A stretch of DNA of 37,882 bases, from positions 1 to 37,882 of the forward strand of contig JAGOVS010000012.1 in NCBI GenBank assembly GCA_018060625.1, read 5' to 3'. Numbering within the stretch: position 1 is the first letter of the stretch; each line of letters begins with the position of its first letter. The notes beneath the pieces are model-generated. The model searched no databases. It saw only the letters and a program-made list of their open reading frames with translations, and was not told the DNA's origin. This DNA is from Bacteriovorax sp. Its GTDB lineage: Bacteria > Bdellovibrionota > Bacteriovoracia > Bacteriovoracales > Bacteriovoracaceae. Below are positions 32,152 to 37,593 of this stretch, piece by piece. Made by a program: the position numbers and the translations under genes.

Positions 32152-32661
32152 TTATTCTTTTTCTGTATAACAAATTTCCATATACATCGGGCCGTGCTGT
32201 GTATTGAATGGAATTAAAATAATATTTGTTCCTGAGGGGTAAGAGATAGAATGATCTTTTCCTTCTACCAGTGATGGAATGGCCATATTGGAAGAGTAAC
32301 CCATAGTTTTCAAATCTCTTTTAGCATTACCCATAACCATGTTGACAATTTCTCCCCCTAGGTCATGAATTTCTGGAGAGTAGGAAGTGTATGTCTCACC
32401 AAGCATCGCACTGGCAACTTTGAAATACGTATCGTAGGGAAAAGAGATGACAAGCATGGCCTTGTATTGGCATCGATTACCATTTTTTTCCATTTCACCT
32501 GAAAGCCCTAAGACTGCAGAGATGTCTCCTCTTGAAATAGAGTCTTTTTTTATAATCGGCTTTTGGGTATCTAGTTTGGTGAATACCATCGTTTCAAAAA
32601 CATTTTTTGCAGCTTCAATAAATGGCTTTGAAAATTCGACAAAATGCGCGTCTGCTGACAT
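32152..32661 (-). CDS. cheX: CheX-like CheY-P phosphatase
   Basis: This is a 169-residue protein of the CheC/CheX/FliY phosphatase family, which accelerates CheY-P dephosphorylation. The catalytic signature D-x3-E-x2-N is intact as D100, E104, N107 in HDLGGEIVNMVMGNAK, and the trailing proline is P129. A single copy of the signature and a length near 155-170 fit CheX rather than CheC. The frame opens at TTG 32673, but ATG 32661 has a GGGAG site. It is the last gene of the five-gene minus-strand operon, 12 bp after the pseudo-HPt gene and one gene away from cheY, its presumed substrate. No cheA, cheW, cheB or cheR appears in this window. Confidence 0.85.
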   Translation of the reverse strand: MSADAHFVEFSKPFIEAAKNVFETMVFTKLDTQKPIIKKDSISRGDISAVLGLSGEMEKNGNRCQYKAMLVISFPYDTYFKVASAMLGETYTSYSPEIHDLGGEIVNMVMGNAKRDLKTMGYSSNMAIPSLVEGKDHSISYPSGTNIILIPFNTQHGPMYMEICYTEKE

Positions 32662-32673
32662 AGATACTCCCAA

Positions 32674-33177
32674 TTAAAGTCCAAGACTTTTCATTAATTC
32701 ATCAATTGAATTCTGATTTAAATTTGTATTATTATCGATGGCGCAAGACGCCCTTTCGATGTCCTTAAATTTCGCTGATAACCAATTGAGCCTTGTAACA
32801 AAGGCATTGGTATTCAGATTATTCATACTTGTTTCGTTACCATTGAGCAGTGATTTATTCATTTGTCTGAGCATGTGGAGTGAATCAAATAATACGGCAA
32901 CAACAACTTCGATAAGTGGAAGGTCTTTTATCTGCGAGGACTTATATCCTATGACTTTACCAAGTTCACAGAAGGTCGCAATTTCCGTTGCACCAATTGA
33001 TTTGGCCGCGCCCATGATTCGATCAATGATTTGCCCAAATTTTTCCAACTCTTTTGTATTTGATGGGTCTTCTTCCATCAACGTTAAAGATGCTTCAAGT
33101 TGATCGAAGAGACTATTGGCCTCATCACAAAAATCCTGAATGATTTCCTTCATAGAAGGATCGTTTAGTATACTCAT
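32674..33177 (-). CDS. Helical pseudo-HPt-like protein with CheZ-like C-terminal tail
   Basis: This is a 167-residue all-helical, soluble protein. Residues 11-65 resemble the P1/HPt domain of CheA (FCDEANSLFDQLEASLTLMEED ... KFGQIIDRIMGAAKSIG). The HTLKG signature is replaced by D52-R-I-M-G56, so the phospho-accepting His is Asp and the conserved Lys is Met. After a flexible Asn-rich linker (about 143-156) the protein ends SIDELMKSLGL, which closely resembles the CheY-binding C-terminal helix of CheZ (VDDLLDSLGF). Encoded between cheY (8 bp away) and cheX (12 bp), it is probably a CheY-binding adaptor, decoy or divergent phosphatase. The CheZ-type catalytic D-x3-Q helix is not apparent. Its function is an inference. 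Confidence 0.7.
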   Translation of the reverse strand: MSILNDPSMKEIIQDFCDEANSLFDQLEASLTLMEEDPSNTKELEKFGQIIDRIMGAAKSIGATEIATFCELGKVIGYKSSQIKDLPLIEVVVAVLFDSLHMLRQMNKSLLNGNETSMNNLNTNAFVTRLNWLSAKFKDIERASCAIDNNTNLNQNSIDELMKSLGL

Positions 33178-33185
33178 CTTTTCAC

Positions 33186-33581
33186 TTATTTAAAAATACG
33201 CTCTATCTTTTCTTTAAGAACTTGGGCCGAGAATGGTTTTACAATAAAATTGCTAACCCCTGCTTTAACTGCAATAACGACGTTCCCTTGCTCAGCTTCA
33301 GCTGTAATCATTAAAAAGGGTAATTTTTCTAGACCTGGAGTTGCTCGAACATTTTTTAATAAGTCAAGGCCAGAAAGTTGGGGCATATTCCAGTCTGAAA
33401 CAATAAATTCATATGGCTTTCCTTCTTTTATCGCATTTTCTATCATTGGCCATGCTGTCGCACCATCATCAGCTTCTGTTATATTGGTAAAACCAATTTG
33501 AGAGAGCATGTTTTTAATAATTTTTCTCATCGTAGACATGTCATCAACAACGAGAATTTTGATATCAGATTTTAAGGCCAT
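33186..33581 (-). CDS. cheY: CheY-type single-domain response regulator
   Basis: This is a 131-residue receiver domain without an output domain. Conserved residues are the acidic pair D13/D14, phospho-acceptor D63 in VSDWNMP, switch Thr T93 in MITAE, and K115 in VKPF. The W64-N-M-P stretch and length match chemotaxis CheY (E. coli 129 residues). The rotameric switch residue equivalent to Tyr106 is F112. Phosphorylated CheY would bind the flagellar switch protein FliM. The neighbours CheX and the CheZ-tailed protein point to local control of CheY-P lifetime. It is the third gene of the operon, 46 bp after the HD-GYP-like gene. Confidence 0.9.
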   Translation of the reverse strand: MALKSDIKILVVDDMSTMRKIIKNMLSQIGFTNITEADDGATAWPMIENAIKEGKPYEFIVSDWNMPQLSGLDLLKNVRATPGLEKLPFLMITAEAEQGNVVIAVKAGVSNFIVKPFSAQVLKEKIERIFK

Positions 33582-33617: not shown

Positions 33618-33638
33618 ATGCTGCTTACTATGCTGCTT
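33618..33638. repeat. Short direct repeat at the HD-GYP-like stop codon
   Basis: ATGCTGCTT occurs twice (33618-33626 and 33630-33638) separated by ACT, spanning the end of the HD-GYP-like gene. On the coding strand this gives tandem stop codons TAG TAA between the two copies. It may mark a small duplication. Confidence 0.5.
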
Positions 33639-34671
33639 TTTTTATAACTAGTTTATCGGCATTTATTAAAGTAACTAAACTATTATAAATCATATCACCA
33701 AAATCAAATTCTAAACCAGGGATATAACTTTTATTTTTCATGCTCACTATTATACTCTTTAAAGGAAATTTATTGCCTGTAATTTTTCCAGAAGAAAACT
33801 CAAATAAATGGGCCATACTTCCTACAATTTGGGAAAGCGGTTCTATGGACTCTCCGTATTTCATGGTGGGGTATCCATTTCCTAAAATGCGCTCATGATG
33901 ATCTAGGATTATTCTCTTGGCCCTTTCACTAAGTTCTAGGCTACTTCTTTTGATAAGATGGTTGCCTAAAATAGTATGCTTTTCAAAGAGTGATTTATCT
34001 TTATCAAATAAGTTAAGCGTGGGAGTTCGTACAAGTGTGAGTGGGAGCTGGGTAAGGCCCATGTGTGAGAGGTAGGCACCGCAAACGATATCTGCTAAGG
34101 CCAGTTGGTCAGAGATATTACACGCTTTTGCCAAAAAATAGGAGCTGGCCACAATCCTGTTTAAGTAATGATCAGCCTTGAGATGCTGCTTGGATAATTC
34201 TAGTGCTAAAGAAATGGTATGGGTATGAGTCACGCTAAAGGTAAGAATTTCAATGCGGGCGTATTCAATAACTTTTTCAAAATTGTCATTTTCACAGGCC
34301 TTTTCAAATTCATTTTGAAAATTAAATACGCCATTTTTTTCATCAAAGATTTCTTTTAACTTGGCATTCATGATTCTTTCTTTTTCTAGTTCATGAAGAT
34401 CTCTTGATTTAAGGGAAGGGATATCAGCTTCTTCGTATTCCTGAGAATTAAGAAAAGTTCGGCGCTGCTTTTTTAAAATTGCAATTTTGCCGCCTTTTTC
34501 AAGCAAATAATCTAAAAAGGTCTCTAGTTCTTTCGTAAGCGGTCTATTGCCATTGAGAAACATGCTATATTTTTTATGAATAGGATTAAATATGAATAAT
34601 TGAAAAGGAAATGTCTTTTTTCCTTTTAAATTGTCTCGTTCAATAATAAAGAAATCATATTCCGTCTTCAT
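33628..34671 (-). CDS. Degenerate HD-GYP-domain protein
   Basis: This is a 347-residue cytoplasmic protein. An N-terminal ~110-residue beta-rich domain (IFNPIHKKYSMFLNGNRPLTKELETFLDYLLEKGGKIAILKK) resembles the DUF3391-like/PilZ-like N-terminal modules found before HD-GYP domains. The C-terminal part aligns with HD-GYP c-di-GMP phosphodiesterases: THTISLALELS, AYLSHMGLTQLP, FEKHTILGNHLI, DHHERILGNGYP (HHE 258-260, GYP 266-268). The metal-binding HD pair is S202-H203, the adjacent Lys is Leu, and the late VADxFDA motif is GSMAHLFEF. Catalysis is therefore doubtful, and a c-di-GMP-sensing or scaffolding role is possible. The gene starts 3 bp after the pseudo-receiver gene. Confidence 0.75.
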   Translation of the reverse strand: MKTEYDFFIIERDNLKGKKTFPFQLFIFNPIHKKYSMFLNGNRPLTKELETFLDYLLEKGGKIAILKKQRRTFLNSQEYEEADIPSLKSRDLHELEKERIMNAKLKEIFDEKNGVFNFQNEFEKACENDNFEKVIEYARIEILTFSVTHTHTISLALELSKQHLKADHYLNRIVASSYFLAKACNISDQLALADIVCGAYLSHMGLTQLPLTLVRTPTLNLFDKDKSLFEKHTILGNHLIKRSSLELSERAKRIILDHHERILGNGYPTMKYGESIEPLSQIVGSMAHLFEFSSGKITGNKFPLKSIIVSMKNKSYIPGLEFDFGDMIYNSLVTLINADKLVIKKAA

Positions 34672-34674
34672 GAT

Positions 34675-37494
34675 TTAACCTGTTTTTTTTCCTTTAAAGA
34701 GACCCGAAAACATTGATAAAACATTTTTCTTGTTTGATTTTTCTTCTTCTTGATTCTCTAATTCTTCAATATCTGATTCTTTTTGTTTTGTTTTTCGCTG
34801 AATACTGTCTAATTGGATGACCCTTGCCATTTCTAAGGTTATTTCAATATCCTTTTCATTTTTAGGATTGATTCCGTTTGGAAAAATCACCAGGACAATC
34901 CCCATGCGATCGACCCCATCAAAGTAGGGGAAAACAAGCTCAACCATTTTATTACTAAGCTCATTTTGGGCCCAAGAGGGGAGTTCAACGTCTTCCCAAT
35001 GTTCTTCATTAGATTTTTTGCTTTTTACATCACGACATATCCATGTAGTCATCGTTTTTAAGAAGTAATCTTCAAAAAGCGCATCTTTGTCTTTATGAGT
35101 ACTCCACCATTCGATGAGTTCAACGTGCTTATCATTTTGAGGTGTCTGCATGATGCTGTTGAAAGCTTCATGATGCTTTTTCTCGCTAACTTTATAAGAA
35201 TAGAAGATAGGATAACCTTGATAATGGGAGATCATCTCTTCTGAGATCATTTTATAGAAATCGGCAGGCCTTGATTCTTTTTGGTAAATTAAGTTTAAGA
35301 CATTAATACCAAAGTCAAATCCTTTAGGGTTGACTTCGATAACTTTAAAACTTCCTTCTTCATCCTCTGTGGAAGAACCTACCTTTTTCCTCTGGGCCTC
35401 TTCTTCATTGTCGGAGACGAATTCTCCTCTTGCTAATGAGTCGAATTCGGCCTTAAGCATACGGTAATCAATCGTTATTTCACCAGCATCTTTACGCGGC
35501 CCATTTGAGAGATTCTCATCATCTTTTCTACTCTTTTTTCCCAAGGCCAAGCTTATTTCTGATTCTTTCGAATTTAATATATCCCAATTTTGATCATTCT
35601 TAGAACGGTTTCCACTACGGTAAAAAGTGTCGATTTGATCAACTTTACCATTGCCTACGAGGTTTTCATTATCATCGCTGAACTCAAGGTCCGTTTGCCT
35701 CATTTTTCTTAAGGAAATTTCACCAGATTCATCGTCATCATTTTTCTTTTTTGCTTCTTTTGGCGAATCTGAGAGTTTTATGTTCGTTTCTTTTTTCGAA
35801 TGTCCTGCTTCGTCTGCATTTAGTTCATCATTTTGATCAATGTCTTCTGAGTTAGTGTTGGAATCATCTAAGTTGATGGTTGTTTCTTTGGATTGATTAT
35901 TAAGATCCCCATCATTTTCCTCAAGTTCATCTAGGTTCTGGTTATCATCATTTTCAGAAAAATCAATCTCGGTATTCTTAAGTTTTTTTACAGCGTCATT
36001 GTTCTCGTCATCTTCTTCATTTTCTTGTTGTTTTTTGGTTTTCGATACTAAATCATTAGATTGAATTTTTTTACTTTCATCGGTTGTGAATTCACTTTTC
36101 ATTAAAGAGTCAATAACGTCAGATTGTCCTTGTCTTCCTGCAAGATTCTCATCAATTTCGAGCTCCGTATTTGCTCGCTTTTTTCTCTCTTTAGTGACTT
36201 CTTCAATCTCTTGATCTGCTGGACGATCCTTTTCTTCAGCAAAGACCATATCCTGGGATTGAGATTTACGCTTTGGAGAGATCTCTTCTTCGGTCTCAAG
36301 GAAATCGCTTTTTTCTTCATCCTCAAATTCTATTTCAGTATTAATTGGACCTGCGGATCTATTCGCTTCATCCTCAAGCTCTTCGAGCTGTTTTTCTTCT
36401 AAGCGCTTTTTAGCTTCTTCAAAAAGTGAATCGAGTTCATCGAGTTCTCTGCGCTTTTTATGTTCTTCAGTTTCTTCCTCTGTCGATATCAGTTCGGAAC
36501 TGGGCGTTTCTTTATCAAAAAGGGAGAGTTCTTCTGTAGGGTTAAGAGTGTAGTTTAATGGCCTTTCTTCATCACCATCAGCTTCAGTGGACTCTTTTTT
36601 TGTAACATCAAGATCAATGGTTGTTTCTTCATAATGCTTTTGTTTTAAGTGCCTCTGCTCAATTTCTTCTTGAGCGGATTCTTCCTGTTCTTTTTTTGCT
36701 TTTTCGATTTCTAGTTCTTCACCAGAGCTTATTTTACGTTTTCCACGATAATACATGTCAATTTCGTTGAGATTCTCCTCTTGGTCTTCTTTATAGGTCT
36801 TTTCATCGCCAAAAAGAGAGGTTTCTTCTGTTTTTCGCTTTGATTTCCAATGCGTCTCAATCGAATCTTCGTGAGTCATTGCTTTAGATTTTAAGTGATC
36901 ATCGTAATTGATTGCATTTTCTTCTTGGTGAATTTTTTTATTTGTTGAATTTTCTTCATTGTAATCAATGTCAACTGCAACGTGTTCTCGATCAGCGTTT
37001 ATCTCACCCTTCATACCAGTGCTTTGGTTTATATCGATCATGCTTTTTACGACTTGATCTTTTTCCGCTTGCTTGCCAGCAGAGGTTTTAATGGAACGCA
37101 GGAGAAGTTTGACTTTGTAGAGTAAAGTCTTTGGGGGGGATGTTTCTAGGATGGCCTCAGTAAGACCGATTTTAGTGAATTTAATAAGTGTCTTTGCGGG
37201 GATTTCCTTAGGCGAGAGTAAAATAACTTTTGAGTGGGACTTTTGAATCATGGCCCTATTTTCTTGGAGAAAGGTTGCACATTTTTTAGCATTAGAAAAA
37301 GTGATAAGGCACTGGCCTGCCGATCCTAGAAATTGCGATAGCTCTTTTAGGTCGTCTATTATGGAAATTTCAATATTTTCTTCGACAGCAATACCATCCA
37401 ACACCTCATTTAATTTTTTTAGAGGTTCAGACATGGGAGGAATAATGGCAAGTTGTTTTTTTAATTCCATATTTCTTAATGAGCTTTTCGTCAT
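34675..37494 (-). CDS. Pseudo-receiver / acidic repeat linker / GAF-like signalling protein
   Basis: This is a ~939-residue cytoplasmic protein with three regions (numbering from TTG 37503). Residues about 14-140 resemble a receiver fold, but the phospho-Asp position lies in LITFSNA and the beta-5 lysine is not conserved (GLTEAILETSPP). Residues about 150-715 are highly acidic, low-complexity and probably disordered. They contain a dozen or so copies of a short T-x-[LI]-x-[LFI]-x-[DE] motif plus a few copies of an [EQ]-I-D-x-[FY]-Y-R motif. Residues about 718-905 form an alpha/beta domain (PADFYKMISEEMISHYQGYPIFYSY; VELVFPYFDGVDRMGIVLVIF) resembling a GAF-like fold. The end, VLSMFSGLFKGKK, is an amphipathic basic tail that could touch membrane. 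ATG 37494 is preferred to TTG 37503. It is the first gene of the operon, divergent from flagellin. Function is unknown. Confidence 0.65.
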   Translation of the reverse strand: MTKSSLRNMELKKQLAIIPPMSEPLKKLNEVLDGIAVEENIEISIIDDLKELSQFLGSAGQCLITFSNAKKCATFLQENRAMIQKSHSKVILLSPKEIPAKTLIKFTKIGLTEAILETSPPKTLLYKVKLLLRSIKTSAGKQAEKDQVVKSMIDINQSTGMKGEINADREHVAVDIDYNEENSTNKKIHQEENAINYDDHLKSKAMTHEDSIETHWKSKRKTEETSLFGDEKTYKEDQEENLNEIDMYYRGKRKISSGEELEIEKAKKEQEESAQEEIEQRHLKQKHYEETTIDLDVTKKESTEADGDEERPLNYTLNPTEELSLFDKETPSSELISTEEETEEHKKRRELDELDSLFEEAKKRLEEKQLEELEDEANRSAGPINTEIEFEDEEKSDFLETEEEISPKRKSQSQDMVFAEEKDRPADQEIEEVTKERKKRANTELEIDENLAGRQGQSDVIDSLMKSEFTTDESKKIQSNDLVSKTKKQQENEEDDENNDAVKKLKNTEIDFSENDDNQNLDELEENDGDLNNQSKETTINLDDSNTNSEDIDQNDELNADEAGHSKKETNIKLSDSPKEAKKKNDDDESGEISLRKMRQTDLEFSDDNENLVGNGKVDQIDTFYRSGNRSKNDQNWDILNSKESEISLALGKKSRKDDENLSNGPRKDAGEITIDYRMLKAEFDSLARGEFVSDNEEEAQRKKVGSSTEDEEGSFKVIEVNPKGFDFGINVLNLIYQKESRPADFYKMISEEMISHYQGYPIFYSYKVSEKKHHEAFNSIMQTPQNDKHVELIEWWSTHKDKDALFEDYFLKTMTTWICRDVKSKKSNEEHWEDVELPSWAQNELSNKMVELVFPYFDGVDRMGIVLVIFPNGINPKNEKDIEITLEMARVIQLDSIQRKTKQKESDIEELENQEEEKSNKKNVLSMFSGLFKGKKTG

Positions 37495-37593
37495 TTTTAC
37501 CAATAAAGATGAGGTTAAAAATATGTTTCTGCAGTGACTTTTAATTCCGAGAGTATTGATCTAGTTTTATTTTTGATAAAAATCATTATTTAT

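Follow-up and report, generated by a model that had tools for sequence, protein, structure and literature searches.

A conserved histidine-less HPt protein with a CheZ-like tail, encoded beside cheY in Bdellovibrionota, is a possible CheY-P phosphatase

What does a small HPt-like protein without a phosphorylatable histidine do when its gene lies between those for CheY and CheX? The question is posed by a draft genome (296 contigs) of Bacteriovorax sp., from which we analysed one stretch of 37,882 nucleotides (contig JAGOVS010000012.1, positions 1 to 37,882; hereafter the window). The gene (start codon ATG at 33177-33175, stop codon at 32676-32674) shares its strand with the HD_5 and CheY genes upstream and the CheX gene downstream, and only 8 bases separate the CheY stop codon from its own start codon (Table 1). 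A preliminary description of this locus had pointed out the motif Asp52-Arg-Ile-Met-Gly56 and the C-terminal end SIDELMKSLGL, and both are correctly placed on the 167-amino-acid open reading frame. We refer to the product as pseudo-HPt. Our preferred reading, to which we give a probability of about 0.5, is that of a His-less HPt docking on CheY by its tail and its pseudo-active-site helix and probably speeding CheY-P dephosphorylation.

Table 1 Coordinates of the pseudo-HPt gene, its parts and its neighbours in the window
Feature	Position	Strand	Basis or remark
Pseudo-HPt gene, 167 aa	32674..33177	-	ORF call and homologues in 174/368 phylum genomes
HPt (CheA P1-type five-helix) domain, residues 8-138	32764..33156	-	Pfam Hpt, profile match to CheA P1, AF2, Foldseek, VIA
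Helix B, residues 42-61, phospho-His site of HPts	32995..33054	-	here G48-(Q/N)49-x-x-D52-R53-x-M-G56
Gln49 codon, amide kept (Gln 63, Asn 8), one turn ahead of Asp52	33031..33033	-	72-sequence alignment
Asp52 codon, invariant, at HPt phospho-histidine position	33022..33024	-	71/71
Linker, variable and disordered, residues 141-154	32716..32757	-	pLDDT <50 for 141-155; entropy 2.97 bits for 148-154
Putative CheZ/FliM-like CheY-docking tail, residues 155-167, QNSIDELMKSLGL	32677..32715	-	conservation, tail profile
CheX-like CheY-P phosphatase, catalytic E108-x-x-N111	32152..32673	-	Pfam CheX E 1.9e-19
CheY, canonical single-domain response regulator, likely partner	33186..33581	-	NCBIfam CheY model E 1e-41
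HD_5 (HD-GYP-like) protein, conserved module neighbour	33628..34671	-	Pfam HD_5 E 6e-13

The Pfam Hpt model (PF01627) matched residues 11-71 of pseudo-HPt with an E value of 6.1e-6 (26.8 bits, cut-off 24.6). Searching the PDB with the single sequence gave nothing significant; a profile built from 49 homologues retrieved CheA P1 domains at E 7.6e-7 (2ld6) and 1.1e-5, in an alignment that set Asp52 on the phospho-histidine and Gly56 on the H+4 glycine of HPts. An AlphaFold2 (AF2) model computed from the homologue alignment showed five helices plus a short terminal one, at a mean pLDDT of 82.6. Comparing this model with known structures by VIA gave as best match the CheA P1 domain 1i5n (Z 15.1, rmsd 2.5, 126 residues aligned) and, with the same Z of 15.1, 3kyj, the P1 domain of CheA3 solved with CheY6; 3kyj was also the top match of Foldseek, at a modest E of 0.014. 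Because designed helical bundles reach Z 13-14.5 in the same VIA list, the fold assignment draws on the sequence profile and the structure comparison together. The preliminary description had recognised an HPt-like segment with D-R-I-M-G in place of the H-T-x-K-G of CheA P1, and Pfam, the CheA P1 profile, the AF2 model and the fold comparison agree with it. Judged by profile and model, pseudo-HPt is a stand-alone CheA-P1-type HPt, sharing the five-helix fold (Z 14-15), the H+4 glycine and the helix-B framework with CheA P1 and other HPts (PF01627; 1i5n, 1tqg, 3kyj). Unlike CheA P1, it is free-standing, carries a CheZ-like tail, and has an invariant Asp for the phospho-histidine and Met for Lys at H+3.

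Of 57 near relatives, 34 have a homologue. Across the phylum, 174 of 368 genomes of Bdellovibrionota encode one (E 1e-8 or better), among them that of Bdellovibrio bacteriovorus HD100; all 52 named loci belong to Bdellovibrionota wherever a lineage is given. In an alignment of 72 members, one of whose rows is truncated at residues 49-53 (hence n=71 there), Asp52 and Arg53 were each present in 71/71 sequences, and residue 49 was always an amide (63 Gln and 8 Asn, nothing else; n=71). Gly56 was kept in 72/72, and Lys74 and Asp98 were invariant as well. Helix B had the lowest mean entropy among the helices (1.16 bits), with Gln49, Asp52 and Gly56 sharing one face on a helical wheel. With Asp in 71/71, the family has no phosphorylatable histidine on helix B and is classed as a pseudo-HPt rather than a phosphotransfer protein; the replacement of the histidine by an invariant Asp shows, at the level of sequence, that the protein is unable to carry phosphate in this way.

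The end of the chain was conserved in a similar manner. The consensus Q-x-x-I-D-x-L-(L/M)-x-x-L-G-(L/F) is kept across the family, and the tail (residues 155-167, mean entropy 1.41 bits) is about as conserved as the core helices, compared with 2.97 bits for the linker (residues 148-154). The linker had been described as Asn-rich, which holds in the source genus; elsewhere it is merely variable. When a profile of 23 tails was run against 177,635 PDB sequences, E. coli CheZ (1kmi chain Z) ranked third at E 0.18, behind two S100-A5 chains with a short internal match, and the alignment covered CheZ residues 201-214, its last 14, from chain end to chain end. At this E value the CheZ match is suggestive and not significant alone. 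As a control, 1,157 distinct open reading frames of at least 100 aa from the fetched loci were screened for the tail motif: 66 ended in it, 65 of them with the DR-x-x-G signature and the 66th being the family paralogue L124, and the motif ended none of the about 1,090 frames outside the family in these loci. The FliM protein of the source genome begins with MAQVLSQDEVDALLNAV, a motif related to the tail. CheZ C-terminal and FliM N-terminal peptides bind the same face of CheY; the FliM segment is N-terminal and lies within the flagellar switch, whereas the pseudo-HPt tail is C-terminal. The likeness of the SIDELMKSLGL end to CheZ, noted earlier, is thus borne out by conservation and by the end-to-end profile alignment. 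The amide/Asp pair is strongly constrained, and so is the tail. A profile search for homologues, proposed in the preliminary description, found Asp52 and the tail both retained, removing the objection that the tail is not conserved, and brought up no match to a known family with a different role.

Two sets of relatives depart from this pattern. The paralogue L124 (G032:C30, minus strand) is without Gln49, Asp52 and Arg53 and has kept the C-terminal part and the tail (TTAELDALLGDLGL), a natural 'dead' version of the protein. A sister family of small proteins (L125, L127 and L128) carries FGQ-x-(I/V)DRIYG on helix B and is without the CheZ-like tail, so that the Q-x-x-D-R signature reaches wider than the tailed family.

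The genomic surroundings point to CheY as the partner. A CheY gene lies immediately upstream of pseudo-HPt in 39 of the 52 named loci, and CheX immediately downstream in 31 of 52 and within a few kb in eight more. The link with CheY and CheX drawn in the preliminary description is therefore upheld, as both genes flank pseudo-HPt on the same strand and the synteny recurs across the phylum. Not mentioned in that description were the conserved amide at position 49, the likeness of the tail to the FliM N-terminus and the HD/HD-GYP neighbour. Tail and CheY neighbour tended to occur together (both in 38 loci, tail only in 5, CheY only in 1, neither in 5; three contig-edge loci left out; Fisher p 7e-4, uncorrected for shared ancestry), and members without a proper tail were mostly without a CheY neighbour. 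Departures from the usual order were also seen: several of these members (L097, L101, L104) are placed after a CheR-RR-REC/CheA operon, and in these and other loci CheX is not adjacent; a second copy in one genome (L072) neighbours another single-domain receiver; and two Bdellovibrio genomes have their best CheY relative 4-5 kb away from pseudo-HPt, with CheX directly following CheY in one of them (L154). The family occurred in 167 of 316 FliM-positive and 7 of 52 FliM-negative genomes (shared ancestry uncorrected) and, among genomes at least 90% complete, in 115 of 216 and 1 of 18, respectively (phylogeny uncorrected). This co-occurrence ties the family to flagella; many flagellated (FliM-positive) relatives are without the gene. 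On the strength of tail, fold and gene order, pseudo-HPt is likely to bind CheY.

Several further genes of the source genome were noted. Directly upstream of the HD_5 gene, a highly charged protein of 942 aa (34675-37503, minus strand) is matched by neither Pfam nor NCBIfam; it resembles a pseudo-receiver at its N-terminus, and its middle is of acidic low complexity. The sole CheA-type kinase found in the draft (L121, G000:C55, 647-5164) has its receiver N-terminal to the HPt, and a transposase-like open reading frame separates it from a true HPt protein (FHSLKG). A second CheY (L120, G000:C118, 4899-5294) is 62% identical and is encoded without an adjacent pseudo-HPt or CheX.

None of the 368 Bdellovibrionota genomes contained a CheZ above the Pfam cut-off. 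Weak CheZ-like matches in seven genomes were discounted, all being below the cut-off and in open frames of at least 401 aa. Pseudo-HPt itself did not match the CheZ profile (PF04344) up to E 1. It resembles CheZ (1kmi) in its putative CheY-docking C-terminal helix (SQDQVDDLLDSLGF versus LNQNSIDELMKSLGL), in the flexible linker before it and in its genetic link to CheY, and by sequence only does it match a CheZ-type helix at the chain end. CheZ forms long helical hairpins that dimerise into a four-helix bundle; for pseudo-HPt, the single-chain model best matches the CheA P1 bundle among the structures listed by the searches. The catalytic D-x-x-x-Q of CheZ is absent: pseudo-HPt reads D52-x-x-x-G56, with the amide at position 49 in a Q/N-x-x-D arrangement. 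CheX and CheC profiles likewise gave no match to pseudo-HPt, which has Q/N-x-x-D instead of E-x-x-N. With CheC, CheX and FliY it would share CheY as target, and its acid and amide lie on a single helix with a spacing of three residues, as theirs do; those proteins differ in their alpha/beta fold and E-x-x-N order, and the neighbouring gene is the CheX here. By eye, the helix-B segment (GQIIDRIMGAAK) and the CheX catalytic helix (GEIVNMVMGNAK) look alike with acid and amide swapped, probably through convergence or chance.

These comparisons bear on the chemistry that may be expected. Into the receiver site, CheZ and CheC/CheX/FliY place an acid together with an amide, and Rap places only an amide (PMC3035606). 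In pseudo-HPt the amide comes first and the acid three residues later, the reverse of both CheZ D-x-x-x-Q and CheX E-x-x-N. The H+4 glycine is important in HPt-receiver chemistry (PMC6341664). In the mechanism that we propose, pseudo-HPt would have become a dedicated CheY partner. As sequence and synteny suggest, its flexible tail would dock on the alpha4-beta5-alpha5 face of CheY like the CheZ C-terminal and FliM N-terminal helices, and the HPt body, to judge from the fold, would bring helix B to lie above the phosphorylation site of CheY, in the manner of CheA P1. Gln/Asn49 and Asp52 may then stand in for the phospho-histidine and most likely promote CheY-P hydrolysis. The least certain step would make of the protein a CheZ-like terminator on an HPt scaffold, acting beside CheX in a phylum without recognisable CheZ. 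When CheY and pseudo-HPt of locus L064 were joined in one frame, with the intervening stop codon read as Gly, the AF2 model of this single-chain read-through fusion reached a pTM of 0.56 and a mean pLDDT of about 71 for the last block, with no confident docking; in pseudo-HPt modelled alone, the last seven residues had a pLDDT of about 82. A catalytic-type pair is favoured because residue 49 stays an amide even though Gln and Asn alternate, and because Asp52 is invariant. Judged from these residues, we put CheY-P phosphatase activity at somewhat under an even chance. It is a more tentative proposal still that the family represents phylum-wide CheY-P phosphatases derived from CheA P1/HPt, in which the phospho-histidine gave way to amide-x-x-Asp and a CheZ-like docking tail was gained.

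CheX limits how far this argument can be taken. Its catalytic Glu and Asn were kept in 39/39 readable homologues, ruling out a degenerate CheX that would leave pseudo-HPt as sole phosphatase. Most often pseudo-HPt has as its neighbour a CheX gene with intact catalytic residues, so that there is no strict need for a further phosphatase. A quite plausible, if less probable, alternative is thus that pseudo-HPt binds CheY without catalysis, docking by HPt body and tail and competing with CheA, CheX or FliM, or positioning CheY. Tail and HPt fold speak for binding and call for no chemistry, a competent CheX adjoins the gene, and L124 lost Gln49, Asp52 and Arg53 and kept the tail, indicating that binding can persist without the pair. 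Competition alone, however, would not obviously fix an amide and an Asp at the receiver-facing surface throughout the phylum. There is a precedent among plants, where the pseudo-HPt AHP6 antagonises the phosphorelay by occupying response regulators. AHP6, thought to compete for these, likewise has an HPt fold without the phospho-histidine, and differs in being eukaryotic, in having Asn for His, in its lack of a tail and in belonging to another HPt subfamily. The working CheX next door and the tail that L124 kept without the pair make an AHP6-like competitor nearly as likely as a phosphatase.

For the phosphatase reading, a bacterial precedent is CheA3 of R. sphaeroides, which dephosphorylates CheY6-P in CheZ's role and whose long central region holds two His-less HPt-like domains (PMC10542144, PMC10924463). 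By description, the two cases are alike in that a chemotaxis HPt-type protein with degenerate HPts acts, or here would act, on a CheY where CheZ is absent. CheA3 differs as a large multidomain CheA homologue. We know of no CheZ-like tail in CheA3. CheO and ChePep of Campylobacterota are other phylum-specific accessory chemotaxis proteins.

We consider it unlikely that pseudo-HPt is instead a helper, delivering CheY-P to CheX or coupling the state of CheY to the HD/HD-GYP protein. A model for such a role is CheD, which modulates CheC. The cheY-pseudoHPt-cheX module in 31/52 loci would fit, as would the HD-type gene that adjoins pseudo-HPt at most family loci across the phylum (in HD100 as Bd1817, divergent by 36 bp); yet L097, L101, L104 and others have no adjacent CheX, pseudo-HPt following REC-CheA instead, and adjacency may mean co-regulation only. 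The helper reading, if true, would link chemotaxis to nucleotide second messengers. That Asp52 is itself a phospho-acceptor or a phospho-histidine mimic, so that the protein would serve as a phosphate sink or as an HPt in a permanently 'charged' state, is very improbable: Asp does sit exactly at the phosphate-carrying position of HPts, but HPt folds are without the metal-binding acidic pocket that receiver Asp phosphorylation needs, no second invariant acid is next to Asp52 on the helix, and the adjacent invariant Arg53 is unlike CheA HPts.

The recurrent HD neighbour leads to the model predator. In genome G154, which we take to be B. bacteriovorus HD100, the HD gene beside pseudo-HPt matches PDB 3tm8 (Bd1817) over its full length (686 bits), and the two genes are divergent and about 36 bases apart (L129, 2211-3682). 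The HD100 orthologue of pseudo-HPt lies at about 1,745,669-1,746,181 of the genome and is probably Bd1818. The structure of Bd1817 has been solved, and the protein is described as an HD-GYP member without catalytic activity and without an assigned role (PMC4159591). The recurrent pairing of HD and pseudo-HPt genes across the phylum may point to the role of this orphan protein. Our literature search found no paper on the pseudo-HPt family and no full-text paper that names Bd1818, in keeping with the earlier statement that no described protein with this combination of pseudo-HPt and tail was known. As far as our searches show, pseudo-HPt proteins with a CheZ-like tail form a real, conserved and undescribed family in Bdellovibrionota, in which two known kinds of element, an HPt fold and a CheY-docking peptide, are newly paired.

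Swimming guided by chemotaxis is believed to be of importance when Bdellovibrio and its relatives prey on other cells, and how the CheY-P signal is ended without CheZ in these bacteria is not described in the literature that we found. The pseudo-HPt family is a concrete candidate for CheY-P termination, present in the model strain HD100 beside Bd1817. If the phosphatase reading is true, the family would constitute a CheY-P phosphatase of a new kind, a further structural solution beside CheZ, CheC/CheX/FliY and Rap, in which an HPt was turned from a phosphate carrier into a phosphate remover and a CheY-docking peptide was reached independently of CheZ. If only the binding is true, what remains is a family of bacterial pseudo-HPts for which a target is predicted. 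For the predatory Bdellovibrio group, pseudo-HPt may be the missing off-switch or brake in the control of swimming.
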